Shown in pieces: positions 4,601 to 32,845 of a stretch of 32,845 bases of DNA. Every line of letters begins with the position of its first letter. Position 1 is the stretch's first letter. The position numbers and the translations under genes are program-made. Location: contig JAKIWH010000004.1 of NCBI GenBank assembly GCA_022750125.1, positions 1-32,845 of the forward strand. Direction: 5' to 3'. Under the pieces are notes generated by a model that was given only the letters and a program-made list of their open reading frames with translations, searched no databases and was not told where the DNA came from. This DNA comes from Thermoplasmata archaeon. GTDB taxonomy: Archaea > Thermoplasmatota > Thermoplasmata > Lutacidiplasmatales > UBA184.

Positions 4601-6054
4601 GAGGGCCGATGGGTCGAGCGGAAGTGCGGTCGGAGGGGAGCGTCAAGAAGATGTCGCAACCTCGCGAGCCGTGCGCGTTCCGACCGTGCCGCGGCGGCCG
4701 CGATCCATCCTCGGGCCCGGACCTCGGTTAGGAGCGAGCGGACCGCGCGGCGCGCGCTCCCTCCCTCCGTCGTCCTCCGCTCCGGCTCCTCTTCGGCGTC
4801 CGGGAGCCCGGGAGTACCTTCGAGCTCGGGAAACGCCCGGTCCCACTCCGAAGGGCTGAGCTCGCGGAGGGTCCGGTGGGTCCGCTCGAGCTTGCCGAGA
4901 AGCCTGGCCACCCGCCCGTGGGCGGCACGGAACGGTACTCCACGCGCGACGAGCGCGTCGACCAGTTCGACGGATCCGGTGTCACCGGCGGGGCTCGCGG
5001 GGGCGAGGAAACGCGCGGTGCGGAGCATCGGCTCGAGCACTTCGAGTCCCTGACGGGCCCGCTCCACCCCCTCGAAGAGGAGCGGCTTTCCCACCTGCAG
5101 GTCCCGATTGTACGCGAGCGGCAGACCCTTCAGGATGGCGAGGTGCGCGACGAGCCGTCCGATCGCGGGCCCGCTCTCGCCGCGCAACAGCTCCGCGAGA
5201 TCCGGGTTGCGCTTGTGCGGCATGAGCGAACTCGTGCTGACGAACTCGTCCGCGAGACGGACGCGCCCAACCTCGGGCATCGAGCCGAGCACGAGCTCCT
5301 CCGCGAGGGAGCTAGTGTGGACGCCCAAGAGCGCGAGCGCCGAGAGCGTTTCCAGCACCGCGTCCCGGTCCGAGACGGCGTCGAGGGAGGAGGGGGAAGG
5401 ACGGCGAAAGCCGAGAAGACGGGCGGACCGCCGCCGGTCGAGCGGAAGCGAGCTTCCCGCGAGCGCCCCGCTCCCGAGGGGGCAATCGACGATCCGTTCC
5501 CGGATCGAGCGAAACCGCTCCGCGTCGCGCAGGAACCGGAGCGCGTGGGTGCCGAGGATCTGGGCGACGTACACCCGTTGCGCGGGCTGCAGGTGGGTCC
5601 AGCCCGCGACGACGATCGATCCGTCGGGTCCCTCGGCCCGCCGACCGAGCTCGACCGCCACCGCGGTCGTCCCTTCCTCGAGGTCGAGGAGCGCCTCCCG
5701 GAGCCAGAGGAGAAGGTCGGTCGCCACCTGATCGTTCCGGCTCCGGCCCGTGTGGAGCCGCTCCCCGTCCCGCCCGATGCGCCGGACGAGCTCCGATTCG
5801 ACGTTCAGGTGAACGTCCTCGAGCTCGCTCGCGAGTTGGAATCGTCCCTGAGCGACGAGCCGCTCGATCGCTCGGAGCCCTCGGTCGATCCGGCGCGCAG
5901 CGGGGGCGGGGAGGATCCCGGTCTCGCCGAGCATCCGCGCGTGCACCCGGGAACCCCAAAGGTCCGCCCGGAGGAGCTCGGCGTCCTCCCGGACCGAGCT
6001 CGAGAGCGCGAGCGCGGCCTTAGCTAGGGGTCGGGAGAACCGCTCGCGCAGCAC
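4597..6054 (-). CDS. argH: Argininosuccinate lyase
   Basis: 'ERFSRPLAKAALALSSSVREDAELLRADLWGSRVHARMLGETGIL', 'RRIGRDGERLHTGRSRNDQVATDLLLW', and signature 'SLMPHKRNPDLAELLRGESG' (GSSxMPxKxN-like). Confidence 0.95.
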   Translation of the reverse strand: MLRERFSRPLAKAALALSSSVREDAELLRADLWGSRVHARMLGETGILPAPAARRIDRGLRAIERLVAQGRFQLASELEDVHLNVESELVRRIGRDGERLHTGRSRNDQVATDLLLWLREALLDLEEGTTAVAVELGRRAEGPDGSIVVAGWTHLQPAQRVYVAQILGTHALRFLRDAERFRSIRERIVDCPLGSGALAGSSLPLDRRRSARLLGFRRPSPSSLDAVSDRDAVLETLSALALLGVHTSSLAEELVLGSMPEVGRVRLADEFVSTSSLMPHKRNPDLAELLRGESGPAIGRLVAHLAILKGLPLAYNRDLQVGKPLLFEGVERARQGLEVLEPMLRTARFLAPASPAGDTGSVELVDALVARGVPFRAAHGRVARLLGKLERTHRTLRELSPSEWDRAFPELEGTPGLPDAEEEPERRTTEGGSARRAVRSLLTEVRARGWIAAAAARSERARLARLRHLLDAPLRPHFRSTHRPS

Positions 6055-7300
6055 GAGATTCGTTCTCCTCGGGGTTCCGGCTCGCCCGGGCCGCCTCGGC
6101 CCGGGCGTGAGCGAGCTGGTTCGGCAGACCGTAGAGGTGGATGAACCCGACGGCGAGCTCCTGGGGGAAGCGGCTCTCCGTGCCGTACGTCGCGAGCTCG
6201 TGCGCGAGGAGCGAGTAGTCGGAGCGGCGACCGACCGCGCGGACGCTCCCCTGGTGCAGGCGGAGCGTGACCGTGCCCGTCACCACCTCCTGCGTCGAGC
6301 GCACAAAGGCGCAGAGCGCCTCCCGGAGGGGCGAGAACCAAAGCCCCTCGTAGACGAGGTCCGCGAACCGCCGGTCGACGAGCGCCTTGAACTGAAGGAG
6401 GTCCCGCGGGAGGACGAGGCTCTCGAGCGATCGGTGCGCTTCGAGCAGGGCGAGCGCGCCCGGGCACTCGTACGTCTCGCGGCTCTTGATACCCACCACG
6501 CGATCCTCGATGTGGTCGATCCGTCCGACGCCGTGGGTCCCCGCGAGCCGGTTCATCGTCTGGACGAGCTGCACCGGCTCGAGCGCCGCGCCGTTCACGC
6601 GCACCGGCACGCCCGCGTCGAAGTCGACCGTGACCTCCTCGGGTTCCCGTGGCCAATCGCTCGGGTGGCCCGTCCACTCGAACACCTCCTCGGGTGCGGC
6701 CAGGGCGGGGTCCTCGAGCCGGCCGCCCTCGATGCTCCGGCCCCAGAGGTTCTCGTCGACCGAGTAGGGGCTCTCGGGGCTCACCCGGATCTCGATCCCG
6801 TGCGTCTTCGCGTACGCGATCTCGTCGGTGCGGTTCATATTCCACTCCCGGACGGGAGCGATGACGCGGAGGCCCGGGCCAAGAGTGTGGACGGCCACGT
6901 CGAACCGGACCTGGTCGTTCCCCTTGCCCGTGCAACCGTGCGCGATCGCGCCGGCGCCCGAGCCGCTCGCGACCTCGACGAGCGTCCGCGCGATGAGCGG
7001 CCGCGCGAGCGCGGTCGAGAGGGGGTAGACTCCCTCGTACAGCGCGTTCGCCTGGACGGCCGGCCACAGGAACTCGCGGACGAACGTCTCCTTCGCATCG
7101 ACGAGCTTCGCGTCGACCGCGCCGTTGCGGCGAGCGCGCTCGAGCGCTCCCTCGAGCTCGCCCTGCTGGCCCACGTCGACCGTGAGGGTGACGACGTCGG
7201 AGTGGTACTGCTCCTGGATCCAGCGGATGGCGACCGAGGTGTCGAGTCCTCCCGAGTAGGCGAGCACGACCTTCGAATCCCGCGCGTCTTCTTCCTTCAT
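6020..7300 (-). CDS. argG: Argininosuccinate synthase
   Basis: 'KVVLAYSGGLDTSVAIRWIQEQY' ATP-binding motif, 'GCTGKGNDQVRFD', 'APVREWNMNRTDEIAYAKTHGI', 'SVDENLWGRSIEGG'. ATG at 7300; the ORF-track start at 7531 is an extension. Confidence 0.97.
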   Translation of the reverse strand: MKEEDARDSKVVLAYSGGLDTSVAIRWIQEQYHSDVVTLTVDVGQQGELEGALERARRNGAVDAKLVDAKETFVREFLWPAVQANALYEGVYPLSTALARPLIARTLVEVASGSGAGAIAHGCTGKGNDQVRFDVAVHTLGPGLRVIAPVREWNMNRTDEIAYAKTHGIEIRVSPESPYSVDENLWGRSIEGGRLEDPALAAPEEVFEWTGHPSDWPREPEEVTVDFDAGVPVRVNGAALEPVQLVQTMNRLAGTHGVGRIDHIEDRVVGIKSRETYECPGALALLEAHRSLESLVLPRDLLQFKALVDRRFADLVYEGLWFSPLREALCAFVRSTQEVVTGTVTLRLHQGSVRAVGRRSDYSLLAHELATYGTESRFPQELAVGFIHLYGLPNQLAHARAEAARASRNPEENESRAARAVLPTPS

Positions 7301-7304
7301 CGAT

Positions 7305-8156
7305 TCACCGTCCTCCTCCCGGGGTCGGAACCTTGAGGAGCGGCGGGCGAGAGCCCGGGCGCGCCTCAGGGAGGAGCTGCGTACCGACCGCCGGCCGAGG
7401 GCCGGCGGGCGAAAGGCCAGCGAGCGAGCCAATCCAGACGCTCCGGGCGCCCTTGCGCCGGGCGAGCTCGGCCGCCTCGAGCTTGGGAACCATCCCGCCC
7501 GTCGCGGCTCCCGAGCGGAGGAGCTCCGCAAGCTCGGACGAGGTGAGGCCGGTCTGGACCGCTCCGGTCGCGTCTCGCACCCCTTCGACGTCGGTGACGA
7601 GCCAGAGCTCGGAGCGCAGCGCCCCCGCGAGGGCGGCCGCCGCGAGGTCCGCGTTCACGTTGTAGAGGTGGCCCGACCGATCGACGCCGATCGGCGCGAG
7701 CACCGGAAGTACACCGTCCTCCCAGAGGCGGAGGAGCGGCCGTGTCCGAACCGCACGGGGCGTACCGACCCAGCCGAGGCTTCCCCGCGGGCTACCTGCC
7801 GGGTCGACGAGAAGGATCCGTTCTGTGGCGCCGGTGAGGCCGTGGGCGTCCACCCCCTCCCGCCCGAGCGCGGCTACGAGCCTTGAATTGATGCGGCCCG
7901 CGAGCACCTCGACAACCACCTCGAGCATCGGGAGCGAGGTGAGCCGTTGGCCCCGCACCCGGGTCGTACGGAGGCCGAGCGCGTGGGCACGGTCCGTCAC
8001 CTCCTCCCCGCCGCCGTGGACAAGGAGGAGCGGGCGGCCGGTCGACCGCAGGGCGGCCACGGTGGCGACGAGCGCCTCGAGCCCGGGTCCCGGCTCCAAC
8101 TCGCGGCCCCCTACCTTGAGGACGGACGGTGCAGGGGAAGCCTCGGTCGCGATCAT
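7305..8156 (-). CDS. argB: Acetylglutamate kinase
   Basis: Amino-acid kinase fold: 'VLKVGGRELE', 'PLLLVHGGGEEVTDRAHALGL', 'LYNVNADLAAAALAGALRSELWLVTDVEGV', 'GGMVPKLEAAELARRKGARSVWIG'. ATG at 8156 overlaps the argJ stop (ATGA). Confidence 0.93.
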   Translation of the reverse strand: MIATEASPAPSVLKVGGRELEPGPGLEALVATVAALRSTGRPLLLVHGGGEEVTDRAHALGLRTTRVRGQRLTSLPMLEVVVEVLAGRINSRLVAALGREGVDAHGLTGATERILLVDPAGSPRGSLGWVGTPRAVRTRPLLRLWEDGVLPVLAPIGVDRSGHLYNVNADLAAAALAGALRSELWLVTDVEGVRDATGAVQTGLTSSELAELLRSGAATGGMVPKLEAAELARRKGARSVWIGSLAGLSPAGPRPAVGTQLLPEARPGSRPPLLKVPTPGGGR

Positions 8157-9406
8157 GTGTGGTACGCCGCGTTGATCTGGACGTACGAGTAGGAGAGGTC
8201 GCAGCCCCACGCGGTCGCGGCCGCGCGGCCGCGGTGGAGGGCGATCTCGAGCGGGACCTCGTCGAGGCGCAGGAGCAGTTCCCGCACCCGCTTGCCCCCG
8301 CCGTTGTCGAGCCCCGCGGCAGGGCGGCCACCGACGATGAGCGGGACCGCCTGGCGTCCGCTTCGGAGCGCGACGTCAATCCGATCGGGGTCGATCTCCG
8401 CACCCGAGTAGCCGAGGGCGCAGGCGATCCGGCCGACGTTTGGATCGGCCCCGAACACGGCGGCCTTGACGAGCGTCGAGCCCACAACCGCGCGGGCTGC
8501 GGAGCGGGCATCCGCAAGGGTCCGGGCGCCCCGAACGGTGACGGTGAGGAGCTTCGTCGCGCCCTCCCCGTCCTTCGCGATCTGACGCGCGAGCGACTCG
8601 AGCGAGGCGAGCAGGAGCGAGGCGAACGCCGGGTCCTCGTCAGCGTACCCTCCGCCGGCGGCGCCGTTCGCGAGGAGGTAGACGGTGTCGTTCGTGCTCG
8701 TATCCCCGTCCACCGAGACCATGTTGAAGGTCCGGTCGACCGCTGCGGCGAGAAGCCGGGAGAGCGCTGCGGGCCGCACCCGCGCATCGGTCGTGAGGAA
8801 GCCGAGCGTCGTCGCGTGCGGCGGTCCGAGCTTTGGGGCGATCATCCCGCTGCCCTTTGCCATCCCGCCGAAGCGGATCCGAGTGCCATCGGCGAGCCGA
8901 CCTGAGGTCGCGGTCTCCTTCGCGCGGGTGTCGGTCGTGAGGATCGCGTGCGCCGCTCTCCGCACACCGTCCCGTCCCGAGTCGGTGGAGGCACGGAGCG
9001 GCTCGAGCCCGGCGAGAACCGTGGCGAGCGGGATTCTAGGCCCGATCACTCCTGTGCACGCGGGCAGGAGGGATCCCTCGGCTACGCCGAAGCATCGCTC
9101 GGCGTTCGCCAAGAGCGTACGGTTGTCCTCGATCCCCTCCGCGCCGGTCATCGCGTTTGCGACGCCGCTTACGGTGAGGACCCCCCGGATCCTCGCGGGG
9201 TCTCGGCGCAGAAGCTCCTCGCCCAAGAGCACGGGGGCCGCCTTCACCACGTTCGTGGTGAACACGCCGGCGGCGCTCGCCGGTCGCTTTGAGAGGAGGA
9301 TGGAGAGGTCGGGCCGGCCGGAGCGCTTCACTCCGCAGGCGACCCCGCCCGCCTGGAAGCCCCTCGGATGGATCGCGCCGCGCAGGAGCCGCCCCAGCGG
9401 TTTCAC
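8153..9406 (-). CDS. argJ: Bifunctional ornithine acetyltransferase / N-acetylglutamate synthase
   Basis: 'GFQAGGVACGVKRSGRPDLSILLS', 'AACTGVIG'-like 'PACTGVIGPRIPL', the autocleavage-region-like 'HATTLGFLTTDARV', 'TFNMVSVDGDTSTNDTVYLLANGAAGG', 'VFGADPNVGRIACALGYSG'. GTG start at 9406 overlaps the argC stop (GTGA). Confidence 0.93.
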   Translation of the reverse strand: MKPLGRLLRGAIHPRGFQAGGVACGVKRSGRPDLSILLSKRPASAAGVFTTNVVKAAPVLLGEELLRRDPARIRGVLTVSGVANAMTGAEGIEDNRTLLANAERCFGVAEGSLLPACTGVIGPRIPLATVLAGLEPLRASTDSGRDGVRRAAHAILTTDTRAKETATSGRLADGTRIRFGGMAKGSGMIAPKLGPPHATTLGFLTTDARVRPAALSRLLAAAVDRTFNMVSVDGDTSTNDTVYLLANGAAGGGYADEDPAFASLLLASLESLARQIAKDGEGATKLLTVTVRGARTLADARSAARAVVGSTLVKAAVFGADPNVGRIACALGYSGAEIDPDRIDVALRSGRQAVPLIVGGRPAAGLDNGGGKRVRELLLRLDEVPLEIALHRGRAAATAWGCDLSYSYVQINAAYHT

Positions 9407-10416
9407 ACCCCGAAGCCGGGCTGGCGCAGGCCCGTCGACTCGTCGAGGCCGAACATCAAGTTCGCGTTCTGGATCGCCTGCGCTGCACCGCCCTTGCCGA
9501 GGTTGTCGAGCGCACTGAAGAGCACGGGAGCATCGCCCGCTCGCTGGAGTGAGAGGAAGCAGAGGTTCGTGCCCTGCGTCCAGCTGAGCCGGGGGGTGGC
9601 CCCCACGTGCACGAACGGGCTCGTCCCGTACGTGGACTCGTAGAGCGCGGGCCAACCTGCTGGGTCGGCCGCGTCTGCGAGCGCGGGGTAGATCGAGCAG
9701 AGGATCCCGCGCACCAGGGGCACGAGGTGCGGGACGAACACGAGCGACAGGCTTGTGCCGGTGAGGGCGGTGATCGCCGCCTGCATCTCGGGCACGTGTC
9801 GGTGCGTCGGGGTACCGTACGGTTGGACGGTCAGCGCTGCCTCCGGGTGATGCGTTCCCGACGTGAGCGAGGCTCCGGCGCCCGAGGTTCCGCTCTTCGC
9901 ATCGACGATCACGGGACCTTTGATCTCTCCAGCCCGGAGAAGGGGAGCTAGCGCGAGCAGCGTGGCGGTCGGGTAGCAACCAGGGTTCGCGACGAGTCGC
10001 GCGCCGCGGACCGCGTCGCGGGAGAGCTCGGGGAGGCCGTACACGGCCTCGGCGAGATGGCCCGCGTCGAGGTGCGGCTGGCCGTAGGCGCGGGCGTACG
10101 CCTCGGGGTCCCGGAGCCGGTAGTCGGGTCCGAGGTCCACGACCTTCGTGCCTGCGTCGAGGAGCGCCGGGACCTGCTTCATTGCCTCCCCGGCAGGCCC
10201 CGCAAGGAAGGCGAGGTCGACATTCAGTTCCTGCGAGTCCGAACGAGTGACCAGCCGGTTCCCTGGGAGATTCGGCCAGATTGCTTCGAGAGGCTCTCCC
10301 GAGCGGCTTGAGGAGACTACCGCGGTCAGAGCGAACTCGGGGTGAGTGGAGAGAAGGCGGAGGAGTTCTCCGCCGAGATAGCCGCTCCCACCAATGACTG
10401 CCGTAGACGTCGACAT
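9403..10416 (-). CDS. argC: N-acetyl-gamma-glutamyl-phosphate reductase
   Basis: 'TAVIGGSGYLGGELLRLLSTHPEF', catalytic 'VANPGCYPTATLLAL', 'VDAKSGTSGAGASLTSGTHHPE', 'HRHVPEM', 'FVPHLVPLVRGIL'. Confidence 0.95.
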   Translation of the reverse strand: MSTSTAVIGGSGYLGGELLRLLSTHPEFALTAVVSSSRSGEPLEAIWPNLPGNRLVTRSDSQELNVDLAFLAGPAGEAMKQVPALLDAGTKVVDLGPDYRLRDPEAYARAYGQPHLDAGHLAEAVYGLPELSRDAVRGARLVANPGCYPTATLLALAPLLRAGEIKGPVIVDAKSGTSGAGASLTSGTHHPEAALTVQPYGTPTHRHVPEMQAAITALTGTSLSLVFVPHLVPLVRGILCSIYPALADAADPAGWPALYESTYGTSPFVHVGATPRLSWTQGTNLCFLSLQRAGDAPVLFSALDNLGKGGAAQAIQNANLMFGLDESTGLRQPGFGV

Positions 10417-20578: not shown

Positions 20579-23500
20579 GTGAGCGTCGCCGACCTCAAGC
20601 CGGCCGGGGAGACTCACCCGCGCTCCGTCAAGCCGATCGACCCGATCCAGGACTATCGGGCATTCCTTCAGAACGTCTTCGAGTCGTCGACGGAGTACTC
20701 GATCATCGCGGCAGATCTCACCGGACGCATCCTGCTCTGGAACGCCGGTGCCCAACGAATCTACGGCTACGGGCCGGAGGAGATCATCGGAAAGGACGCG
20801 AGGATCCTCCACTCCACCGAGGAGGTCCGGGACGGAACCGCCGATCGTGTCCTCGCGGTGGCCCTCGAGCAGGGCAAGTTCGAGGGACTGGTCCGGCGAC
20901 AGCGGAAGTCCGGCGAGACCTTCGCCGCCCGGATTGTTTCGACGGTACGTCGCGATGCGAACGGTCACCCGATCGGGTTTCTCATCGTCTCCAAGGACCT
21001 CACCGACGAGGAGCGGCTGAGCCAGAAGATCATCGAGTCGGAGGAGTACAATCGGGGCCTCATCGAGGCGAACATCGACGGGCTGATCACGACCGATACC
21101 CTCGGGGTCATCACCGGCGTGAACCGGCGGATGGAGGAGCTCACCGAGATCCCCCGGGAACAGCTGGTAGGATCCCCGTTCAAGAACTATTTCACCGACC
21201 CCTCTCGGGCCGAGGAAGGGATCCGCCGGGTCATCGCCGAGGACCGCGTCACCAACTTCGAGCTCACTCTCCGTTCTGCCTCGGGCCATCCGACCCTCGT
21301 TTCCTACAACGCGACGACGTTCCGCGGCCGCGACGGCCGGCTCAAGGGCGTCTTCGCCGCGGCCCGTGATGTCACCGAGCAGAAGAAGCTCGAGGCCGAC
21401 CTCCGCGAGTCGGAGAACTACAATCGGGGCCTGATCGAGGCTTCCCTCGACGCCCTCATCACGGTCGATCGCGACGGGGTCATCACCGACCTCAACCGGC
21501 AGATGGAGAAGGTGACCGGCTACTCGCGCGAGGAACTCGTGGGCAGCAAGTTCAGCGAGTACTTCACGGAAGCCGAACGGGCCGACGCGGGGATCGCCCG
21601 GACCTTGAAGGACGGGTTCGTCACGAACTACGAACTGGTGCTCCGGCCCCGGGGTCGTGGCGAGGAACGGGTCGTCTCGTTCAACGCCTCCGTGTTCAAG
21701 GATATCGCGGGGCGAGTGAAGGGGATTTTCGCCTCGGCGCGGGACATCACCGACCAGCAGCGCTTGCAGGAGCAGCTGCGGGAGTCGCAGCTCTACAACC
21801 GGAGCTTGATCGAGGCGTCGCCCGACGCGCTCGTCACCGTCGACCCCGACTACGTCATTACGGACGTCAACGAGCAGATGGTCCGGGTCACGGGCTACAC
21901 CCGGGAGGAGCTCGTCGGGAGCCCGTTCAAGAACCACTTCGAGGACCCGGCCCGCGCCGTCACCGGGGTTCGCCAGACGTTCGAGCAGGGATTGCTCACG
22001 AACTTCGAGCTCATCCTGAAGCCCCGGAACTCGCCGCCGGTCGTCGTGTCGTTGAACGCCTCCGTGTTCCGGGACCCGGAGGGCCGGGTCAAGGGGATTT
22101 TCGCCTCGGCGCGGGACATCACCGACCAGCGGGCGCTCGAAGAGAAGCTCCGCGACGCCCAGAACTACAACCGGGGTCTCATCGAGGCCTCCGCGGACGC
22201 GATGGTCATCGTCGACCGCGAGCTGTTCATCACGGACGTCAACGAGCAGATGGTCCGGCTGACGGGCTTTCCGCGCAAGCATCTCATCGGTTCGTCGTTC
22301 AGCCAGCACTTCACCGACCCGGACCACGCCTCGAGCGGGGTCCGGCAGACCCTCGAGAAGGGTGCGGTGACGAACTACGTCCTGATCCTGCGTTCGAAGG
22401 ACGGACGGGAGACCCCTGTTTCGCTGAGCGCCTCGGTGTTCCGCGACATCGAGGGCGGCATCAAGGGGGTTTTCGCCTCCGCTCGCGACATCACCGCCCA
22501 GAAGACGCTCGAGGCGCAGCTCCGCGAGTCCACGAACTACAGCCGGGGCCTGATCGAGTCGAGCATCGACGGCCTGTTCACGACCGATGCCGTGGGAACG
22601 ATTACCGACGTCAACCGCCAGATGGAGATCATCACCGGCATCGATCGGGGGCGACTCATCGGGACCCCGCTCAAGAACTACTTCGTGAACCCCGACCTGG
22701 CCGAGGAAGGGGTCCGGCGGGTGCTCGAGCAGAACCGCCTCAGCAACTACGCCCTCGTCCTCAAATCGGAGAACGGCACCGAGACGCCGGTCTCCTTCAA
22801 CGCCACGACGTTCCTGGGCGCCGACGGGGCACTGAAGGGAATCTTCGCCTCGGCGCGTGATGTCACGGAGCAGAAGACGCTCGAGACGAGGCTCCGGGAA
22901 TCGCTAGGGTACAACCGAAGCCTGATCGAAGCCGCCGTGGACGCCCTCGTCACCGTCGACCGGGGCCTGACGATCACCGACGTCAACGAGCAGATGGTCA
23001 AGGTGACGGGCTACACGCGCGAGGAACTCGTCGGCTCCCTGTTCCCGGATTACTTCACCGACCCGGTGCGCGCCGGCGAGGCCGTCCGCCAGACCCTCGA
23101 GGCCGGGGTGGTCACGAACTACGAGCTCACCCTGCGGAGCCGCCACGGCCGGCTGATGCAGGTCTCGTTCAATGCCTCGGTGTTCAAGGATATCGAGGGC
23201 CGGGTGAAAGGAACGTTCGCCTCGGCCCGTGACATCACCGAGCAGAAGCGGCTCCAGGACCAGCTGCGCGAGTCGCAGCTCTACAACCGGAGCCTGATCG
23301 AGGCATCTCCCGACGCCATCGTCACGGTCGACCCCGATCTCGTCATCACCGATGTGAACCAGCAGATGGTCACGCTCGCGGCCACCCCGCGGGACCTCCT
23401 GACCGGGAGCTCCTTCAAGGACTACTTCACCGACCCCGAGCGCGCGGTCGCTGGCGTCCGACGGACCCTGCGCGAAGGCTCGGTCACGAACTACGAGCTC

Positions 23501-25171
23501 GTCCTACGCTCCCGGGAGGGGCGTCGGACGCTCGTCTCGACGAACGCGGCCGTTTTCAAGGACGCCGAAGGAAAGGTCGCGGGTATCTTTGCCTCGGCCC
23601 GAGACATCACCGAGCAGAAGAAGACCGAAGAGAAGCTCCGGGATTCCGAGAACTACAACCGGGGCCTCATCGAAGCCTCCCCGGATGCGCTCGTCACGGT
23701 CGCGCCGGACCTCATCATCACCGACGTGAACGAGCAGATGCTCCGGGTGACGGGCTACACTCGCAAGCACCTGATCGGCAGCCGCTTCCCCGAGCTGTTC
23801 ACCGACCCCGTGCGGGCGGAGCACGGGGTCCGGCGGGCGCTCGACGAAGGGACGGTCTCGAACTACGAGCTCATCCTCCGTAAGCGCAACGGACAGCGGA
23901 TCCCGGTATCGCTCAACGCCGGGACGGCGTACGACATGGCCGGTAACGTCCGAGGGGTCCTCGCCGCGGCACGCGACGTCACCGAACAGAAGAAGCTCGA
24001 GGGTCAGCTGCGGGAGTCGGAGAACTACAACCGGGGCCTCGTCGAGTCGAACATCGACGCGCTCATGACCACGGACGTCCTCGGGACGATCACCGACGTC
24101 AACCGCCAGATCGAGGTCCTGACGGGCCTCTCCCGCGACCAGCTGATCGGGACGCCGTTCAAGAACTTCTTCACCGACCCGGCGAAGGCGGAGGAGGGGA
24201 TCCGGCGCGTGCTCAGCGAGAACAAGGTCACGGACTTCGAACTCACGATCCGAAACCCGGACGGCCGGACCGTGGACGTCTCCTACAACGCCACTACCTT
24301 CCGCGACACCGAAGGGCATCTCAAGGGGGTGTTCGCCGCCGCTCGCGACGTCACGGAACAGAAGCGGCTGCGCGAGCAGATCGAGCAGCGTAACCGGGAG
24401 CTCGAAGTCCAGAACCAGAAGGTCCAGGAGGCCAACCGGCTCAAGAGCGAGTTCCTGGCGAACATGTCGCACGAGCTTCGCACACCGCTCAACAGCATCA
24501 TCGGCTTCTCGGAGTTCCTCCTCGCCGACGCCGACACGATCGCTTCCTCCGACCGCCAGGAGTACCTCGAGGACGTGCTGAACAGCGGCCGTCACCTCCT
24601 GCAGCTGATCAACGACGTCCTGGACCTCGCCAAGGTCGAGGCCGGCAAGATGGCGCTCTCCCCCGCGCCGTTCTCGGTGGTGAACGCCGTCGGCGAGGTG
24701 CGCTCGGTCGTCAAGCCGCTGACCGAACAGAAACACATCACGATCCTGACCCAGGTCGCTCCCGAGCTCTCCACGGTGACGCTCGACCCGCTGCGGTTCA
24801 AGCAGATCCTCTACAACCTCCTCTCGAACGCCGTCAAGTTCACCGACGACGGGGGGCGGGTCGAGATCCAGATCTTCCCGCACGGGGAGCAGATGTTCGC
24901 CCTCCAAGTCTCGGACACGGGGATCGGGATCGCCGCCGAGGACTTGCCGCGGTTGTTCCGGGAGTTCGAGCAGCTCGACGCCGGACCGGGTCGCCGATAC
25001 GAGGGCTCGGGCCTCGGCCTCTCGCTCACCCGGCGCCTCGTCGAGCTCCACGGCGGCACGATCGCCGTCGCGAGCGAACCCGGGAAGGGGACGGCGTTCA
25101 CCGTGTACCTGCCGCTCAACGCCAACGGTCGTTCGGGCGAGGAAGCCACCGCTCCGGCCGTGGAGGCCTGA
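20579..25171 (+). CDS. Soluble multi-PAS (10 PAS) sensor histidine kinase
   Basis: 1530 aa. One divergent N-terminal PAS, nine tandem homologous ~124-aa PAS units, then HisKA 'KSEFLANMSHELRTPLNSIIGFSEFLL' and HATPase 'YNLLSNAVKFTDDGG', 'VSDTGIGIAAEDLPRLF', 'GSGLGLSLTRRLVELHGG'. No TM segments. Confidence 0.95.
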   Translation: MSVADLKPAGETHPRSVKPIDPIQDYRAFLQNVFESSTEYSIIAADLTGRILLWNAGAQRIYGYGPEEIIGKDARILHSTEEVRDGTADRVLAVALEQGKFEGLVRRQRKSGETFAARIVSTVRRDANGHPIGFLIVSKDLTDEERLSQKIIESEEYNRGLIEANIDGLITTDTLGVITGVNRRMEELTEIPREQLVGSPFKNYFTDPSRAEEGIRRVIAEDRVTNFELTLRSASGHPTLVSYNATTFRGRDGRLKGVFAAARDVTEQKKLEADLRESENYNRGLIEASLDALITVDRDGVITDLNRQMEKVTGYSREELVGSKFSEYFTEAERADAGIARTLKDGFVTNYELVLRPRGRGEERVVSFNASVFKDIAGRVKGIFASARDITDQQRLQEQLRESQLYNRSLIEASPDALVTVDPDYVITDVNEQMVRVTGYTREELVGSPFKNHFEDPARAVTGVRQTFEQGLLTNFELILKPRNSPPVVVSLNASVFRDPEGRVKGIFASARDITDQRALEEKLRDAQNYNRGLIEASADAMVIVDRELFITDVNEQMVRLTGFPRKHLIGSSFSQHFTDPDHASSGVRQTLEKGAVTNYVLILRSKDGRETPVSLSASVFRDIEGGIKGVFASARDITAQKTLEAQLRESTNYSRGLIESSIDGLFTTDAVGTITDVNRQMEIITGIDRGRLIGTPLKNYFVNPDLAEEGVRRVLEQNRLSNYALVLKSENGTETPVSFNATTFLGADGALKGIFASARDVTEQKTLETRLRESLGYNRSLIEAAVDALVTVDRGLTITDVNEQMVKVTGYTREELVGSLFPDYFTDPVRAGEAVRQTLEAGVVTNYELTLRSRHGRLMQVSFNASVFKDIEGRVKGTFASARDITEQKRLQDQLRESQLYNRSLIEASPDAIVTVDPDLVITDVNQQMVTLAATPRDLLTGSSFKDYFTDPERAVAGVRRTLREGSVTNYELVLRSREGRRTLVSTNAAVFKDAEGKVAGIFASARDITEQKKTEEKLRDSENYNRGLIEASPDALVTVAPDLIITDVNEQMLRVTGYTRKHLIGSRFPELFTDPVRAEHGVRRALDEGTVSNYELILRKRNGQRIPVSLNAGTAYDMAGNVRGVLAAARDVTEQKKLEGQLRESENYNRGLVESNIDALMTTDVLGTITDVNRQIEVLTGLSRDQLIGTPFKNFFTDPAKAEEGIRRVLSENKVTDFELTIRNPDGRTVDVSYNATTFRDTEGHLKGVFAAARDVTEQKRLREQIEQRNRELEVQNQKVQEANRLKSEFLANMSHELRTPLNSIIGFSEFLLADADTIASSDRQEYLEDVLNSGRHLLQLINDVLDLAKVEAGKMALSPAPFSVVNAVGEVRSVVKPLTEQKHITILTQVAPELSTVTLDPLRFKQILYNLLSNAVKFTDDGGRVEIQIFPHGEQMFALQVSDTGIGIAAEDLPRLFREFEQLDAGPGRRYEGSGLGLSLTRRLVELHGGTIAVASEPGKGTAFTVYLPLNANGRSGEEATAPAVEA
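21041..24380 (+). repeat. Intragenic tandem repeat: nine PAS-coding units of 372 bp (one of 375 bp), with ~1.49-kb super-period
   Basis: The Tyr codon of the '(E/Q)xYNRxLIE' motif falls at 21047, 21419, 21794, 22166, 22538, 22910, 23282, 23654 and 24026. A 40-nt stretch is identical at 21719-21758 and 22091-22130 (offset 372). A 24-nt stretch is identical at 21782-21805 and 23270-23293 (offset 1488). Confidence 0.9.
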
Positions 25172-25188: not shown

Positions 25189-25632
25189 ATGAGTCGAATC
25201 CTCTTGGTGGAGGACAACGTCCAGAACCTGAAGCTCGCCACCGTCATCTTGCGGCACGAGGGCCACGAGGTCATCCCGGCCTCCGATGCCGAGGAAGCGG
25301 AACGGCATCTCGCCGCGAACCCCCCCGACCTCGTCCTGATGGACATCGGTCTCCCGGGGAAGGACGGCTACACGCTCACCCGGGAGATCCGGCGCAACCC
25401 GGCCCTGGCGCACATCCCCGTCCTTGTCGTCACCTCCTTCGCGATGAAGGGGGATGAACGGAAGGCGAGAGAAGCCGGATGCAGCGGGTATCTAACGAAG
25501 CCGATCAATCGCGTCGAGTTGCTCAGCGAGATCCGGCGGCTGCTCCCGAACGCTTCGTCGAGCCCGCGGGCGGGTCGGCCGGGGCCGGAGGATCCGAGCG
25601 GTCGGTCCGGGGCTGGAGGAGCCGGGAAATGA
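25189..25632 (+). CDS. CheY/DivK-like single-domain response regulator
   Basis: 'RILLVEDNVQNLKLATVILRHEGHEVIPASDAEEA', phospho-acceptor 'PDLVLMDIGLPGKDGYTLTREIR', 'VVTSFAMKGDERKAREAGCSGYLTKPI'. Confidence 0.93.
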   Translation: MSRILLVEDNVQNLKLATVILRHEGHEVIPASDAEEAERHLAANPPDLVLMDIGLPGKDGYTLTREIRRNPALAHIPVLVVTSFAMKGDERKAREAGCSGYLTKPINRVELLSEIRRLLPNASSSPRAGRPGPEDPSGRSGAGGAGK

Positions 25633-26123
25633 TCGACCGGGAACCGGGCGGCCTGCGGATCCTCGCCGTCGACGACTCCGCGTCGGCCTGCAAGCTCTTC
25701 CAGGCGGTCCTCCTCCGCCTCGGTGTCGCGCGCCCCGACCTTCGCTTCGCCTCGAGCTCGACCGAAGCGCTCCAGCTCTTCACGCAGTGGAGGCCGGACC
25801 TCGTCTTCGTCGACATCGAGTTGGGCGCGGCAGCCCGCGCCCGTCTCCCGGACGGGGGCCCGGCGGGCAGCGGAAAGGTCGGCGCGGTCGACGGGGACGA
25901 TCTCGCCCGCCAGATGCTCCAACGCGACCCCCAGCTGAAGCTCGTGGTCGTGACCGCCTTCGACCGGGACCATCCTCGGGTCCAGGCGCTCCTCTCGGGG
26001 GGTGCGGCCGACGTGATCGTGAAACCGCTCCTCGCCTCGCGGGTGAAGTCGGTCCTCGACAAGCTCGCGACCCCGGTTCCGGCGAACCGTCGTTACCGGT
26101 CGGTGCAGCCCGCCTGGATCTAG
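25629..26123 (+). CDS. Response-regulator receiver protein with extended loop after the phospho-acceptor Asp
   Basis: ATG at 25629 overlaps the previous stop (ATGA). 'RILAVDDSASACKLFQAVLLRLG', 'PDLVFVDIELGAAARARLPDGGPAGSGKVGAVDGDDLARQML', 'VVVTAFDRDHPRVQALLSGGAADVIVKPL'. Confidence 0.85.
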   Translation: MIDREPGGLRILAVDDSASACKLFQAVLLRLGVARPDLRFASSSTEALQLFTQWRPDLVFVDIELGAAARARLPDGGPAGSGKVGAVDGDDLARQMLQRDPQLKLVVVTAFDRDHPRVQALLSGGAADVIVKPLLASRVKSVLDKLATPVPANRRYRSVQPAWI

Positions 26124-26141: not shown

Positions 26142-28070
26142 CTAGCTTCGGGTCGGGTTTCGGCCGTGGGCGCGACGCGCCCGCACCGCGAGCACGGCGA
26201 CGGCCCCGCCCAGGACGCTCGCGAGGGCGGCCCAAGCCCACAGGCTAACGCCGAACGGCCCCAGCGGGAGGCCCGGACCGGGGGGAGCCGAGTTCGTGCC
26301 GTTCGGCGTCGATGTGGCCACGTACGTGGCGCTTCCCTGGGCCTCGTCGCCCCAGCCATCGACAACGACGACCGTGACGTTGTACACCCCCGACGCCGCC
26401 GGGCGGTACGAGAGCGTCGCGTTGGCGCCCGGCTCCGGCAGGCCGTTGATCGACCAGCGGTAGGAGCCGCTCGCGAGCGAGCCCCCGCTCGCCGCCGCGG
26501 TAGCCTCGAACGCCGTGCCCGCGGTTCCCGTCGATCGGTTGAGCGTGAGGTTGACCCGGAGCGGGAGGTACGCGAGCTCGGTCACCGAGGCGTCCACCGC
26601 GGTTCCGTTCGAATCCGTGGCGGTCGCGCGAACCAGAAACGATCCCGGGGTCTCGAACGTATGCGTCCCCTGCAGTCCGCTCGCCGTCGGGCTCCCGTCC
26701 CCGTACTGCCACCGCACCGAGTACGGCGGCCGACCTCCGGTGACGTTGGCCGAGAGGTCCACGCTGAACGGCACCGGACCCCGATCTCGGCTCGCCGTGG
26801 CCGTCAGCCGGAGGGGGGAGGATCCGTTGGTGACGGTGATCGTGAGGTTCGCCCCGGAGGAGTTCGTATGCGCGTCCGTTGCCTCGACGTGGACGGCGTA
26901 CGACCCTGGGAGGCTGAAGAGGTGGGTTGGGTCGGCGGTGGTGGCGTTCGCCCCGTCCCCGAAGGTCCATCGGTAGGCGTAGGGGGCCGATCCGCCCGTG
27001 ACGTTCGACCGGAACCCTACGGTCAGGGGAGCGATCCCCGTCGTGGCGCTCGCGCTCGCGCGCACCGAGAGCGGTCCCGGCCCTGGGAACGCGAAGAGGC
27101 TCTTCATCGGCGGGTACTTCGTCCAACTGTCGTTGTTCCCGAGAGAAGCGGTACCGAGGAGCCACTCCGTGGTCGTCAGGACGTTGTAGTCGGTGACGTT
27201 CACCGCGAACGTGTAATTCGCGCGGACGTACGCTCCAACGGCCACGAGGTACGTGTGGCCGCCCACCGTGCCGTTGAATCCGCTCGTGTCACCGGCGCTC
27301 GATTCGTCGTAGAGGATGAAGAAGACCGAGCTCGAGGCCCAGCTGGCGTTGAGGAGCGGCGGGAGCCATCCCTTGAGCCACGCGTCGGCCCCTGCAACGC
27401 CCGTATCATGGCCATCGTCCGTCATGTTCGCCGCCACGAACGCATAGTTCGGAACCGACCCGCTCGCGACCGCGCTTTGCCAGGCCGCGAACCCCTGGTC
27501 GTGGGCGTCGCACCGGGTCGCGTTCCCGACGATGTCGGCCGGATAGACGAACGGATTGTGGTGGGCGATGTACGGGTAGCTGTCGGAGCTGTCGCAGGCG
27601 GACGGCATGCTCTCGAAGTAGCCGCCCCAGGAGAGGTGGCGCGCCTCGAGGAGGTCCGCGATGTTCGCCGTCGTGTAGGTCGTGACCCCGTCGCCGCCGC
27701 ACTGCCACGTCTTTCCCGTCACGAGGGCGAGGTAGTTCGGCGCCGAAGGGTGGCAGGCGGCGTAGTAGTGGCTCGCGAACCCGTACTGCCGGGCCAGCGA
27801 AGCTTCGAACGGACCTTGGGCCAGCACGGTCGAGACCTGCTCGTTCTCGAGGAGGACCGTGATGACGTGGCGGATCGGGGTCGGGAAGGCCGGCGCCGAG
27901 GGCCGGGCGGTTCCCGCGTTCGGCAGCTGGGAGACGGGCGCGGAGGGGGGCGACGGACCCACGGGCACCCAGAACGGGGTGGAGAGCAGGAGGAGGACCC
28001 AGAGCGCGGGAAGCAGCGACCCGGGCCCGCGGGGGGCACGAGCGCGCCGCAACCCCCGGCGTCGGTCCAT
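26142..28070 (-). CDS. Secreted phosphoesterase-family (PF04185-like, acid phosphatase-type) protein with PKD domains and C-terminal TM anchor
   Basis: 'IRHVITVLLENEQVSTVLAQGPFEASLARQYGFASHYYAACHPSAPNYLALVTGKTW' matches the acid-phosphatase-type phosphoesterase N-terminus. PKD motifs 'YRWTFGDGANATTADPTHLFSLPGSYAVHVEATDAH' and 'VRWQYGDGSPTASGLQGTHTFETPGSF'. C-terminal TM 'LWAWAALASVLGGAVAVLAVRARRAHGR'. Start taken at ATG 28070. Confidence 0.8.
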   Translation of the reverse strand: MDRRRGLRRARAPRGPGSLLPALWVLLLLSTPFWVPVGPSPPSAPVSQLPNAGTARPSAPAFPTPIRHVITVLLENEQVSTVLAQGPFEASLARQYGFASHYYAACHPSAPNYLALVTGKTWQCGGDGVTTYTTANIADLLEARHLSWGGYFESMPSACDSSDSYPYIAHHNPFVYPADIVGNATRCDAHDQGFAAWQSAVASGSVPNYAFVAANMTDDGHDTGVAGADAWLKGWLPPLLNASWASSSVFFILYDESSAGDTSGFNGTVGGHTYLVAVGAYVRANYTFAVNVTDYNVLTTTEWLLGTASLGNNDSWTKYPPMKSLFAFPGPGPLSVRASASATTGIAPLTVGFRSNVTGGSAPYAYRWTFGDGANATTADPTHLFSLPGSYAVHVEATDAHTNSSGANLTITVTNGSSPLRLTATASRDRGPVPFSVDLSANVTGGRPPYSVRWQYGDGSPTASGLQGTHTFETPGSFLVRATATDSNGTAVDASVTELAYLPLRVNLTLNRSTGTAGTAFEATAAASGGSLASGSYRWSINGLPEPGANATLSYRPAASGVYNVTVVVVDGWGDEAQGSATYVATSTPNGTNSAPPGPGLPLGPFGVSLWAWAALASVLGGAVAVLAVRARRAHGRNPTRS

Positions 28071-28212
28071 GGACCGGTCGAGGCGGGTGCCTGGGGCTCG
28101 AAGCGGGAATCCCTTGGAGAACGAGTGCGCGCGCGGGACATCTCCCCCCCGGTTCGAAGCTTCTCGCCCGGTACCCGGCGCCTCTTCGGCGCGCTCCGAG
28201 TCGCGCAACGGC

Positions 28213-29529
28213 TCACTGGTATCGGAAGCTCATCGACCCGGACGAGCTCACGAGGAGGTGGGAGGAGTCGACGATGTGGAGGCCCCCCGAGGTCGTCCAG
28301 CCGACCAGACTGAAGCCGGGGCACGACGGGGCCGAGAACGCGAACGGGGTCTCGGACGGGCGGACCGTCGCGCTCTTCCCCGGCGCGTACGCCGAGTGGT
28401 TGAATTCGACCGGTCCACAGGAGGAGGCACTCGCGGAGAACCCGACGGTCGCCGACGCGGCGTACACGGTCTGGACGCTCACGCTGTAGAGCAGGGCACC
28501 GCACGCGTCGTGGAGATGGGCGAGGTAGGTTCCCGGATAGAGGTAGCTATCGTAGTTGAGGAGCAGCACCTGGACCTCAGCGGGCGTGGGTCCCGTCTCG
28601 GGGGGCGACGCAGCTTGGGCCTGGGAGACCTGTCCCGTGACCGGATCCTCGACTTCGAGGAAGAACGACCGGCCGGGCACGTAGCCCGAGATCCACATCG
28701 AGTACTCGCTCCCAATGAGCGCCGGGTTGGGGGTCGTCCGGACGAGGCCGACGTACGGCGCCGGGAAGAAGATCGAGGGCACGGCGGCGGGCCAGTACGC
28801 GGAGGAGGTCGGTTGGCTCCAGCCTCCGACGGTCCCGCCCGCGTCCGGCTGGTAAACCGCCCAGTGCCAGCGGACCTCTACCGTCAGGTTCCCGTACTCG
28901 GACGACCCCAAGACCGCGAGCTTCTCCGAAGAGAGCAAAGCGCTGCCCGACCCGAAGCTGTCGGTCGCGGGAACCCCGACCGATTGGCTCGCCGACGGGG
29001 GGCTCCACCAGCCGGGTCCGGAGATGTTCTGCGCGGCGGGAGGGAAGTAGATCGTCAGGGGTCCGCCGCTGCTCATCGGGAACGTCGCGAAGAGGCTCGG
29101 AAAGGAGAGAGATGCCCCGGCGTCGGATGCCGAGTAGTTCACTATCGCGTAGGCGTACGTCGCGCTGACCTGGGCACCTCCCGCCACGAACCCGCTCGGG
29201 TTGGGCACGGGGATCAGGAGGGCGGACGGGGTCGGAGTGGAGACGGAATTGCACCACGACGGTCGTGCGGGGGGTCCGGTAGGCCCGGGGGGTGGGGGAG
29301 TCCCCGGCCCGGAAGAGTTCGGCGGTGGCGTGGGGGTCGGGGGCGGGCTCGTCGCCGCCCCCGATCCGCCTTGGGTGGAGGGGAAAGGGCCGAGCGTCCC
29401 GAAGAACAACCCGAGAGCGACCACGACGGAGACCCCGCTGCCGAGGGCGATGGCGAGGTTGAATCGCGAGAGGCGGGAGCGCCGAGTCAGTTCCGTGCGA
29501 TCGGATCCCGGGCCGTAGTGTGAGACCAT
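28213..29529 (-). CDS. Membrane-anchored surface protein, paralogue of 31717..32844; unknown function
   Basis: N-terminal TM 'LAIALGSGVSVVVALGLFFGTLG', Pro-rich linker, then a domain sharing 'NLTVEVRWHWA', 'IFFPAPY', 'FFLEVEDP', 'YLAHLHDACGALLYS' and 'GWTTSGGLHI' with the second paralogue. Confidence 0.8.
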   Translation of the reverse strand: MVSHYGPGSDRTELTRRSRLSRFNLAIALGSGVSVVVALGLFFGTLGPFPSTQGGSGAATSPPPTPTPPPNSSGPGTPPPPGPTGPPARPSWCNSVSTPTPSALLIPVPNPSGFVAGGAQVSATYAYAIVNYSASDAGASLSFPSLFATFPMSSGGPLTIYFPPAAQNISGPGWWSPPSASQSVGVPATDSFGSGSALLSSEKLAVLGSSEYGNLTVEVRWHWAVYQPDAGGTVGGWSQPTSSAYWPAAVPSIFFPAPYVGLVRTTPNPALIGSEYSMWISGYVPGRSFFLEVEDPVTGQVSQAQAASPPETGPTPAEVQVLLLNYDSYLYPGTYLAHLHDACGALLYSVSVQTVYAASATVGFSASASSCGPVEFNHSAYAPGKSATVRPSETPFAFSAPSCPGFSLVGWTTSGGLHIVDSSHLLVSSSGSMSFRYQ

Positions 29530-29790
29530 CTGCCGAACCTGGTGGTCTCCCGACGTTTCGGCGAGCCCACGATTTTCAATGCGGCGGAGGACCTATACGG
29601 GCTCCGTTACGGAGCGGCGAGGCCCTATCGGTTCGGTCCCGGAGGACCCGCCGCGCGCTGCGGTCTACGCCGGGGAGATGCCCTTGGGACGCTACGAGCT
29701 GCTCGACGCGTATCCTACTTCTCTCGACCTGTCAGGTCCGTTACGCAACGACCATCCCCCTAACGCGCCTCTCGCCCGTCGAGGATTCCG

Positions 29791-30009
29791 TTGCCGGAAG
29801 AGCCTGCGCCGCCGGGACCCCGATGGAGCGGCAGGACGACCCCCGACCGAGCCGAACTTGGGAGTTGCCCTCAGTGCGGCAGCCCGCTAGTGGAGTCCGC
29901 CGAGCCGTACGAGTTCTGCGGAGTGGAACTCGGGATACCGGCGGGGCGCTCCTGCACCGCCTGTTCGTACCTCGAGCTCACCCAGACGTCGGTGGGCACG
30001 CGGCGCTAG
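29791..30009 (+). CDS. Possible small zinc-ribbon protein
   Basis: 72-aa ORF, TTG start with 'GAGG' upstream. 'CPQCGSPLVESAEPYEFCGVELGIPAGRSCTACSYLEL' has a two-CxxC zinc-ribbon pattern. Confidence 0.5.
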   Translation: MPEEPAPPGPRWSGRTTPDRAELGSCPQCGSPLVESAEPYEFCGVELGIPAGRSCTACSYLELTQTSVGTRR

Positions 30010-30077
30010 CCCGCACTCCCGAACTCTTCGCCCGGAGAGGCGTCGCCCCCTAGTACGAGCTGCCCCGACGCTTCCGG

Positions 30078-31523
30078 TCACCCCTCGCCGATCGAGCGGG
30101 CCGTCGATCGTTCGGACCGAACGGCCATGGGACTGCCCGACGCCGTGCCCACAGGTATCGACGCGGAATGGACGGGCGTCGCCAGAGGCTGCAGCACGAG
30201 CGGGTAGGTACCGTTCGGGTCGAAGACGAGCGGCATCCTCGGTGCCTGAGAGGTGTCGATCAGCGACGTCAGGCTTGGAGCGGAGCCGTCCGCTCCTCCC
30301 AGCGAGGGAAGGCCAAAAACCTCCTCGACGAGCCGCGCGATCGAGCTCGTCACCCCGAAGGTCGAACTGACGAACCCCTCACGGGCGAACGGGCTGATCA
30401 CGAGGAGCGGCACGCGGAAGCCGGGGCCGGTCGTGCCCTCGTTGGGCGGGGCCCGGTGGTCGTACCAGCCGCCGCCTTCGTCCCAGGTCAGGAGGATGAG
30501 GCTCGAGTTCCAGACGCTGCTCTCCTCGACCGAGTTCACGACGCTCAACGCCCAGTCCATGCCGGGATCGACCGGTCCCGGCGGATGTTCGCTCTGGGGA
30601 AACGAGGGGAACACCCACGAAACGTTCGGTGCGGACTTGGTCGCGAAGTCCGTCGGGAAGCTGTACCGGGAGGGGAAGTGCACCGCGTTGGACGGAAGGT
30701 ACGTCGACGCCTTGGCGAGGAACGGGTCGAACTCGTCGAAGAGGGTTCCCTCCGCCACCGAGCTGTTCGCGCTGCGGTTGAGCGCGCCACCGTACCCGCC
30801 GGGTGCGATCCCGCCGGCGTAGACCCTCCAGGAGAGTCCCGCCTGACTGAGGGAGTCGCCCAGGGTCGGGGTCGAGTTCGCTTGGGCGAGGTAGGACTGA
30901 CCCACCGCCGTGATCTGACCCCCCCGGACGAACGTGTTGAAGTCGTTCTGGAAGGAGACCGCCGGAGGGGCGCCGGAGAGCAGCAACCAGTGGTTGGCGA
31001 GGCTCGCGCCCAAGGCGCCCGAGTAGAAGTTCTGGCCGAGCGAGTACTGCTCGGCAAGGTTCCAGTAGGGGGCGATGGTCGCGTTCGTGAAGTACGCCAT
31101 CGGGGTCGAGTTCCCATGGTCGGCCGCGATGAAGCCGTCCATCCGTCCTTGATCCCACGCCAGGTGATCCGATCCCCAGGTGTGAGGCAGGTCGTTCGAC
31201 GGGTGCCATCCCGCAAGCGCAGGGTAGGGGCTCACACAGCCGCTCGCCGGGTCGGTGAGGGAGTACGGGATGCATGCGCCGGCGGGGATGCCGTCGACCG
31301 CCGTCGAGCAGAAGGCGCTGGTCGCCTGGCAGTACGCTCCGAAATAGTTGTCGAAGGCGTGATTCTCCTGGAGGATCACGACCACGTGCTGGATGGCGGG
31401 GATCCGGTGCCGGGGGGGGTCGGCGCCGAGGTGGAGCGGGAGAAGGCCGGTCGCCAGGAGCAGCGCCACGCCGGCCACGGCGGCCACCCCGGAGAAAGCG
31501 GCGATCTTCCTACGGCGCTCCAT
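30078..31523 (-). CDS. Secreted phosphoesterase-family protein (PF04185, phospholipase C/acid phosphatase-like)
   Basis: N-terminal signal/TM; 'IQHVVVILQENHAFDNYFGAYCQ', 'DLPHTWGSDHLAWDQGRMDGFI', 'LILLTWDEGGGWYDHRAPP', 'GPGFRVPLLVISPFAREGFVSSTFGVTSSIARLVEEVFGLP' are PLC/phosphoesterase hallmarks. Confidence 0.9.
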   Translation of the reverse strand: MERRRKIAAFSGVAAVAGVALLLATGLLPLHLGADPPRHRIPAIQHVVVILQENHAFDNYFGAYCQATSAFCSTAVDGIPAGACIPYSLTDPASGCVSPYPALAGWHPSNDLPHTWGSDHLAWDQGRMDGFIAADHGNSTPMAYFTNATIAPYWNLAEQYSLGQNFYSGALGASLANHWLLLSGAPPAVSFQNDFNTFVRGGQITAVGQSYLAQANSTPTLGDSLSQAGLSWRVYAGGIAPGGYGGALNRSANSSVAEGTLFDEFDPFLAKASTYLPSNAVHFPSRYSFPTDFATKSAPNVSWVFPSFPQSEHPPGPVDPGMDWALSVVNSVEESSVWNSSLILLTWDEGGGWYDHRAPPNEGTTGPGFRVPLLVISPFAREGFVSSTFGVTSSIARLVEEVFGLPSLGGADGSAPSLTSLIDTSQAPRMPLVFDPNGTYPLVLQPLATPVHSASIPVGTASGSPMAVRSERSTARSIGEG

Positions 31524-31546
31524 CCCGAGGAAAGCGAGACCTCACG

Positions 31547-31553
31547 GTATATG
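31547..31553 (-). promoter_or_regulatory. Putative TATA box for the phosphoesterase gene at 31523; predicted leaderless
   Basis: 'CCATATACC' on the minus strand, centre ~27 nt upstream of the ATG at 31523. Confidence 0.4.
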
Positions 31554-31716
31554 GCGAGCCACGGAGGGCCCGGGTAGGTCGTATCCTTGCACGTTCCGCC
31601 CCAGCGGCGGCCGCCCTCGGGGCCACCGGTCGTCTCCCGGCGCGCTCCCGGTCCCGCCGGGGTCGGAGCGTCCGCGGAGTGGCCCGTTCCGAGCTCCGGC
31701 GGGTCGGCGACCGGGT

Positions 31717-32845
31717 CTACGAGAAGCGGACCGTGAAGTTGCCGCTCGAGCTCACCTGGAGGGCGCTCGAAGAAGCGATGTGAAGGCCCCCGGTCGTCCC
31801 CCATCCCCGGAAGCTGTGGCCCGCGCAACCGGAGACCGCGAAGGAGTAGGGGGTCGCCGAGGGGACGAGCTGGGCCCTCCCTCCATCGTGGTACGCCGTG
31901 CCGTTGAGTGAGATGGTCCCACACAACCTGGGGACGAGGTGGACCGTAACGTTCGCCGCCGGCGCGAAGACCGCTCGGACCGGCAAACTGTAGAGGAGGG
32001 CTCCGCAGTCGTCGTGGATGTGCACGAGGTAGGTCGCGGGCGTAAGGTAGCCGATGTAGGTCAGGAGCACGATCGAGGCCGCGAACCGGGAGACGTTCCC
32101 CGGCGCGGTTTCGCTCACCGCCTGGACGACCGTCCCGTTGGTCGGGTATTCGAGCTCGAGGAAGAACCCGCGGCCGGCGACGGTGCCGCCGAGGAGCGCG
32201 GTGAAGTTGGCGCCGACGTACGCCTGCGAGTTCGGCTGGGCGAGGAGCGAGGCGTACGGGGCTGGGTAGAAGATGGTCGGGAGCGTGCCCGGGCCACTGC
32301 CTCGGACCGACGGGACGCTCCACGGGCCGTTATGGGTGGGCGAGCCCGGCGAGCCGAGAGCCCAGTGCCAGCGCACCTCCACGGTCAGCGACGCGTACGT
32401 GGCGTTGGCCATGACGGCTAGCAGCTGGGTCGAAAGAAGGGCCGGCGTCGAGTTCGAGAAGACCAGCCCGCTCGGGAAGGAGACGTTCCGGGTGGCGAGG
32501 GAGGCGTTCGACCAGCCTGGGGCAGCGATGGTGAGGTTCCGGGGAAGGAAGTAGATCGTCGCCGACCCGCTCGGGGAGAGGGGGAACGTCGCGAAGACAC
32601 TGGGAAACCAGATCCGGATACCGGCGTTGGCCGACGTGTAGTTGACGATCTTCACCTCGAAGGTCGCAGCGAGCGATCCGCCCGCCGCCAGGACGGTCGT
32701 CGGGTTCGGGATCTGGACGCGGAGGGCGGAGGGGGAGGGGGACTTCACCGCGTTGCAGACCGTGCCCGCACTCCCGCCGTGAACCACTCCGCTCGGGAGC
32801 GAGCCGGGCACGAGGAGCATCATCGTCAGGGCCACGAGGACCACG
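31717..32845 (-). CDS. Partial (N-terminus may lie outside window) surface protein, paralogue of 28213..29529
   Basis: Shares 'PSVFATFP', 'TIYF', 'LTVEVRWHWA', 'IFYPAPY', 'FFLELEYP', 'YLVHIHDDCGALLYS' and 'GWGTTGGLHIASSSALQVSSSG' with the 28213..29529 product. The frame stays open to the window edge. Confidence 0.8.
   Translation of the reverse strand, partial: VVLVALTMMLLVPGSLPSGVVHGGSAGTVCNAVKSPSPSALRVQIPNPTTVLAAGGSLAATFEVKIVNYTSANAGIRIWFPSVFATFPLSPSGSATIYFLPRNLTIAAPGWSNASLATRNVSFPSGLVFSNSTPALLSTQLLAVMANATYASLTVEVRWHWALGSPGSPTHNGPWSVPSVRGSGPGTLPTIFYPAPYASLLAQPNSQAYVGANFTALLGGTVAGRGFFLELEYPTNGTVVQAVSETAPGNVSRFAASIVLLTYIGYLTPATYLVHIHDDCGALLYSLPVRAVFAPAANVTVHLVPRLCGTISLNGTAYHDGGRAQLVPSATPYSFAVSGCAGHSFRGWGTTGGLHIASSSALQVSSSGNFTVRFS

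Follow-up and report, generated by a model that had tools for sequence, protein, structure and literature searches.

The described enzymes closest to the phosphoesterases considered here are the acid phosphatase AcpA (2d1g), bacterial PC-PLC, and plant NPC4, in which the residues E23, N24, D299, and E300 bind metal or activate the nucleophile, T158 (PMC9837106). The superfamily domain, the E-N and D-E metal-site residues, and the Ser/Thr nucleophile motif of these enzymes are common to two proteins, PE_s and PE_l, encoded in a 32,845-nucleotide stretch of a Thermoplasmata archaeon genome (hereafter, the window). However, the PE_s of the window matches the Pfam model in the second part only, carries a PKD stalk and a TM anchor, and has a partner gene for a surface protein, SURF. 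This arrangement is similar to that of the CBM-type binding modules encoded beside or fused to secreted hydrolases, since SURF is likewise a predicted non-catalytic β-sandwich protein whose gene adjoins, or is fused with, that of an exported hydrolase, but SURF resembles no CBM in sequence and none convincingly in fold. The C-terminal domain of SURF (D3) shares a G-W motif and a β-rich pattern with the InlB B-repeat/List_Bact_rpt families (Flg_new PF09479 and Flg_new_2 PF18998) and differs from them in a conserved Cys pair. Our literature searches did not find the pair of SURF and a phosphoesterase described.

The genome containing the window comprises 1.89 Mb in 146 contigs, and its relatives are Thermoplasmata MAGs. 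PMC9287336 lists the isolates AcS13-54 and AcS5-58 as Lutacidiplasmatales of Scottish acidic soils, and SubAcS15-67 and SubAcS13-24 appear, judged from their names, to belong to the same series. The window also contains an arginine biosynthesis cluster on the minus strand (4597-9979), consisting of argininosuccinate lyase, argininosuccinate synthase, and ArgJ.

Surface proteins and phosphoesterases of the window

An earlier note on this DNA had placed four open reading frames on the minus strand in the order SURF1, PE_l, SURF2, and PE_s, all of which we found at the coordinates it claimed. SURF2 (28213..29529, minus strand) is a 438-aa surface protein with predicted export, in which an N-terminal hydrophobic segment and a Pro-rich linker are followed by a β-sandwich domain (D1), an Ig-like domain (D2), and the InlB-repeat-like D3. 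Its paralog SURF1 (31717..32844, minus strand) has 375 aa counted from the GTG at 32844, and the open frame of 412 aa runs beyond the edge of the window. The pairwise alignment of SURF1 and SURF2 shows 42-43% identity over ~355 residues (E 1.3e-84); the colinear series of motifs that had been noticed in the two proteins is therefore real and not a product of chance. Neither protein has a match in Pfam or NCBIfam, and the two are not sisters in the SURF tree, which is weakly supported in that region.

PE_l (30078..31523, minus strand), located 193 nt downstream of SURF1, is a full-length PLC-like PF04185 protein with a signal peptide, and matches the family over the whole model with 220.5 bits (E 4.9e-65). 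PE_s (26142..28070, minus strand, with an alternative TTG start at 28208) belongs to the AcpA branch of PF04185 and contains a signal peptide, two PKD domains, and a C-terminal TM segment; its match of 78.3 bits (E 8.1e-22) covers model positions 108-291 only. Both scores lie above the Pfam gathering cut-off of 23 bits, and the motifs 'ENHAFDNYFG', 'LTWDEGGGWYDH', and 'HPSAPNYLALVTG' were confirmed in the phosphoesterases. The two enzymes belong to one superfamily but to different branches, PLC-like for PE_l and AcpA-like for PE_s. The PE_s profile matches AcpA (E 3.4e-9) as well as phospholipases C, and PE_l matches AcpA and PLC structures with E-values of 1e-23 to 5e-23. Against the PC-PLC equivalog TIGR03396 and the Burkholderia-type acid phosphatase TIGR03397, PE_l scores 166.5 and 148.4 bits, below the curated cut-offs of 580 and 362.75, respectively; PE_s has no match to the NCBIfam models of either enzyme.

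The E-N and D-E pairs of PE_s align onto E43-N44 and D386-D387 of AcpA and correspond to E23, N24, D299, and E300 of NPC4. The nucleophile is assigned, by motif alone, to the Ser of HPSAPN (PSTPG in AcpA). The catalytic E, N, S, D, and E are kept in 14 of 15 aligned PE_s proteins, including that of the window, the exception being a fusion protein described below. PE_l, aligned through AcpA, retains QENHAF and WDEG. The contig of the window carries a further PF04185 gene, its third, on the plus strand (L019:11752-13410, equal to C49:37751-39409); this gene belongs to the PE_s branch and lies ~5 kb past the window edge, with no SURF adjoining.

The earlier note had regarded the four genes as a duplicated two-gene module. 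The SURF genes are indeed paralogous, but PE_l and PE_s do not resemble each other significantly in pairwise comparison (best E 0.13) and are not duplicates of each other, so a duplicated module is unsupported. Each enzyme has its nearest relatives at other loci, PE_l among other PE_l proteins (44%) and PE_s among other PE_s proteins, such as that of genome G004 (47% over 528 aa). The window is thus better described as two SURF paralogs beside enzymes of two kinds. In another species, G181, SURF and PE_s do form a genuine tandem repeat, on contig C6.

Fold and distribution of the SURF family

SURF is, by its sequences, a previously undescribed and lineage-restricted family of predicted secreted proteins. 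Intact SURF, scored on the two N-terminal domains, is confined to one Thermoplasmata family, where it occurs in 17 of 103 genomes, all within two genera, with up to seven genes per genome. Beyond the family, a search of 400 genomes of the class and 390 of the phylum gave nothing but one short and weak match, in G251 (E 4e-4, 75 columns), which we took as chance. The D3 repeat without the rest of SURF is widespread across the family of the window. A 1026-aa protein of JOPF208 (L066:405-3485) has a 673-aa N-terminal region without a Pfam match, followed by a SURF domain.

The model of SURF (356 residues, pLDDT 82) is all-β and consists of three parts, and D1 modelled alone from 50 sequences is confident (pLDDT 93). 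No convincing match of the D1 model was found in the PDB, where the best had an E-value of 0.056 and the TM-scores were low; the viral matches were weak only, and several of these were tail proteins. The whole model gave generic multi-Ig matches alone in the PDB (TM ~0.2). The SURF profile found no match under E 0.48 among PDB sequences. Among 12 SURF proteins scanned, none reached the gathering score of PF09479 or PF18998 (best E 0.023, in one protein), and tandem repeats similar to the C-terminal region of SURF, located elsewhere in the genome, matched PF18998 with E 0.0016, under the cut-off.

Adjacency and fusion of SURF and PE_s

In 15 genomes with 53 SURF and 93 PF04185 matches, we counted as adjacent any phosphoesterase gene that follows SURF directly, in the same orientation and at a distance of up to 1.5 kb. 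SURF is followed by PE_s in this way at nine places in seven genomes, against 0.051 expected (Poisson P ~6e-18), an estimate that assumes independent loci, although five of the nine places represent one inherited clade. The five-locus SURF clade is mirrored by a five-member PE_s clade, which could simply reflect common inheritance. The remaining four pairs (the window, G004, G207, and a fusion on contig C21 of the window's own genome, G000) occupy separate positions in the SURF tree, weakly supported in some cases, and the SURF-PE_s pairs fall on several separate branches of both trees. The divergences of SURF and PE_s are correlated (r 0.94), which we did not take as evidence of interaction because the one inherited five-locus clade drives the correlation.

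Eight of the nine places are two-gene pairs, and in six of them 11-25 nt separate the SURF stop from the PE_s start codon. The exceptions are G207, with 63 nt, and the window, where the ATG of PE_s lies 142 nt past the SURF stop and the alternative TTG lies 4 nt past it; with the ATG, co-transcription is less obvious there. G650, outside the nine-place count, has SURF followed by its sole PE_s, and two further SURF genes flank this pair. Among the genes immediately downstream of SURF on the same strand, PE_s is the most frequent one that could be identified (8 of 31). More than 40 of 58 SURF genes have no PE_s adjoining them, and PE_s is present in the SURF-free genomes G007, G010, G012, and G022. 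For PE_l, the corresponding arrangement was observed twice, in the window and in G322, against 0.089 expected (P 0.004).

The C21 locus (L020:6604-10329, minus strand) is a single ORF of 1242 codons, in which a hydrophobic leader is followed by SURF, PE_s, two PKD-like stretches, and a C-terminal TM segment, in the same order as the separate SURF and PE_s genes of the window. The window PE_s is 42% identical to the fusion over 565 aa, with the stalk region included. In the fused PE_s, the E-N metal-site pair conserved in the 14 other PE_s proteins is replaced by Q-S, so this PE_s may have lost or changed its activity and is possibly a pseudoenzyme, and the fusion alone is no proof of a working enzyme complex.

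The adjacency and the fusion speak for a functional connection of SURF with PE_s, the fusion being indirect support only for an interaction of the two proteins. The earlier note had proposed that the repeated pairing marks a functional unit and had named the absence of recurrent adjacency as its refutation; for SURF and PE_s the adjacency does recur, once as the fusion, and the G650 pair comes besides, so this part of the proposal gains support. The same idea fares less well for SURF and PE_l, where the pairing recurs only once (G322) and the link is therefore weak.

Other neighbors are conserved at SURF loci. A histidine kinase with ten PAS domains by Pfam (20579..25171, plus strand) is convergent with the PE_s/SURF2 pair of the window; its homologs, 69-72% identical, lie beside SURF in G004, G223, G236, and G227 and on contig C135 of G000. 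Conserved with the kinase is a response regulator with, by sequence, a single receiver domain (25189..25632, plus strand), whose homologs, 57-58% identical, adjoin the kinase in L122, L130, and L131. A second response regulator (25479..26123, plus strand, PF00072) has homologs in L068, L122, L130, and L145, and response regulators flank SURF in G650 too. ATP sulfurylase genes occur near SURF in six genomes (L020, L062/L131, L063/L130, L068, L125, and L141), accompanied by a PF01663 type I phosphodiesterase in L020 and L062; in L141, a ComA-type phosphosulfolactate synthase sits between the ATP sulfurylase and SURF. A deeper and separate SURF clade without D3 adjoins GT2 glycosyltransferases, the same-strand downstream gene in L021, L024, L070, L123, L136, and L147 being of GT2 type or a BLAST-linked homolog; the partners of SURF are therefore probably of more than one kind.

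Proposed role of the pair

The SURF gene stands repeatedly ahead of the PE_s gene and is once fused to it, which suggests that the two proteins cooperate on the cell surface. We consider it rather probable that SURF2 and PE_s form an exported two-protein unit, consisting of a tethered AcpA-type phosphoesterase and a non-catalytic surface partner, that releases phosphate. The two genes would most likely be co-transcribed. PE_s would act outside the cell as a metal-dependent AcpA-type phosphoesterase, held on the PKD/Ig stalk by its C-terminal membrane anchor, and SURF, a putative non-catalytic all-β surface protein, would bind either PE_s itself or the substrate of PE_s, a polymer or particle, and thereby keep PE_s in place on the cell surface. 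Organic phosphate of the acidic soil would be cleaved, probably to yield phosphate, or an alcohol and phosphate; such scavenging is plausible, being compatible with the AcpA-type active site predicted for PE_s. We infer co-transcription, physical interaction, the binding role, the substrate, and phosphate scavenging alike. SURF1 and PE_l may form an analogous association, weaker and younger, or their pairing may be incidental.

Genes for exported proteins might also cluster and expand together as an island, with no function shared by SURF and PF04185 proteins. Surface proteins with PKD, kelch, and fn3 domains are abundant around the SURF loci, SURF is often solitary or beside other SURF genes, and, when orientation is disregarded, SURF and PF04185 genes are also enriched within 3 kb of each other (17 PE_s and 6 PE_l). 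However, the placement of PE_s is specific, directly downstream on the same strand with very short spacers, and holds among species whose SURF proteins are partly only 27-42% identical. Genes for PE_l are nearly twice as many as those for PE_s, yet give two same-strand downstream cases, and an island does not account for the fusion. We regard this explanation as rather unlikely.

Two other readings assign SURF a different part. It could be a sensor or adhesin module with a degenerate or regulatory PE_s, controlled or answered by the ten-PAS kinase and the response regulators; the fused PE_s lacks the metal-site E and N, and at least five species have the kinase and regulators as conserved neighbors of SURF. 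This seems improbable, since every catalytic residue is intact in all PE_s proteins aligned except the fused one, the convergent orientation of the kinase genes and SURF implies no shared promoter, and some kinase-linked SURF loci (L130, L131, and L122) have no directly adjoining PE_s. That SURF is instead a dedicated chaperone-like partner for the secretion or folding of PE_s, and not a targeting protein, would suit the position of SURF ahead of PE_s in the paired loci, mostly at a short distance, and the single fusion. Nevertheless, SURF far outnumbers its pairings with PE_s, its modelled all-β three-domain architecture with an InlB-like repeat resembles an adhesin or binding protein, and the deeper clade adjoins GT2 glycosyltransferases instead of PE_s, which makes a chaperone role very improbable.

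A broader reading, which we hold only tentatively and think doubtful, is that SURF is an archaeal surface recognition family with an unseen β-sandwich and clade-specific partners, AcpA-type phosphoesterases in one case and envelope glycosyltransferase loci in the other, for the capture and processing of phosphorylated polymers or lipids. If this were true, the acid-soil Thermoplasmata would own a modular surface system that captures and processes such compounds. As a new lineage-specific family, SURF offers a partner, a ligand, and a fold that are accessible through recombinant proteins. To our knowledge, little is known about phosphorus uptake by uncultured acid-soil Thermoplasmata, for which the SURF-PE_s pair is a concrete candidate.
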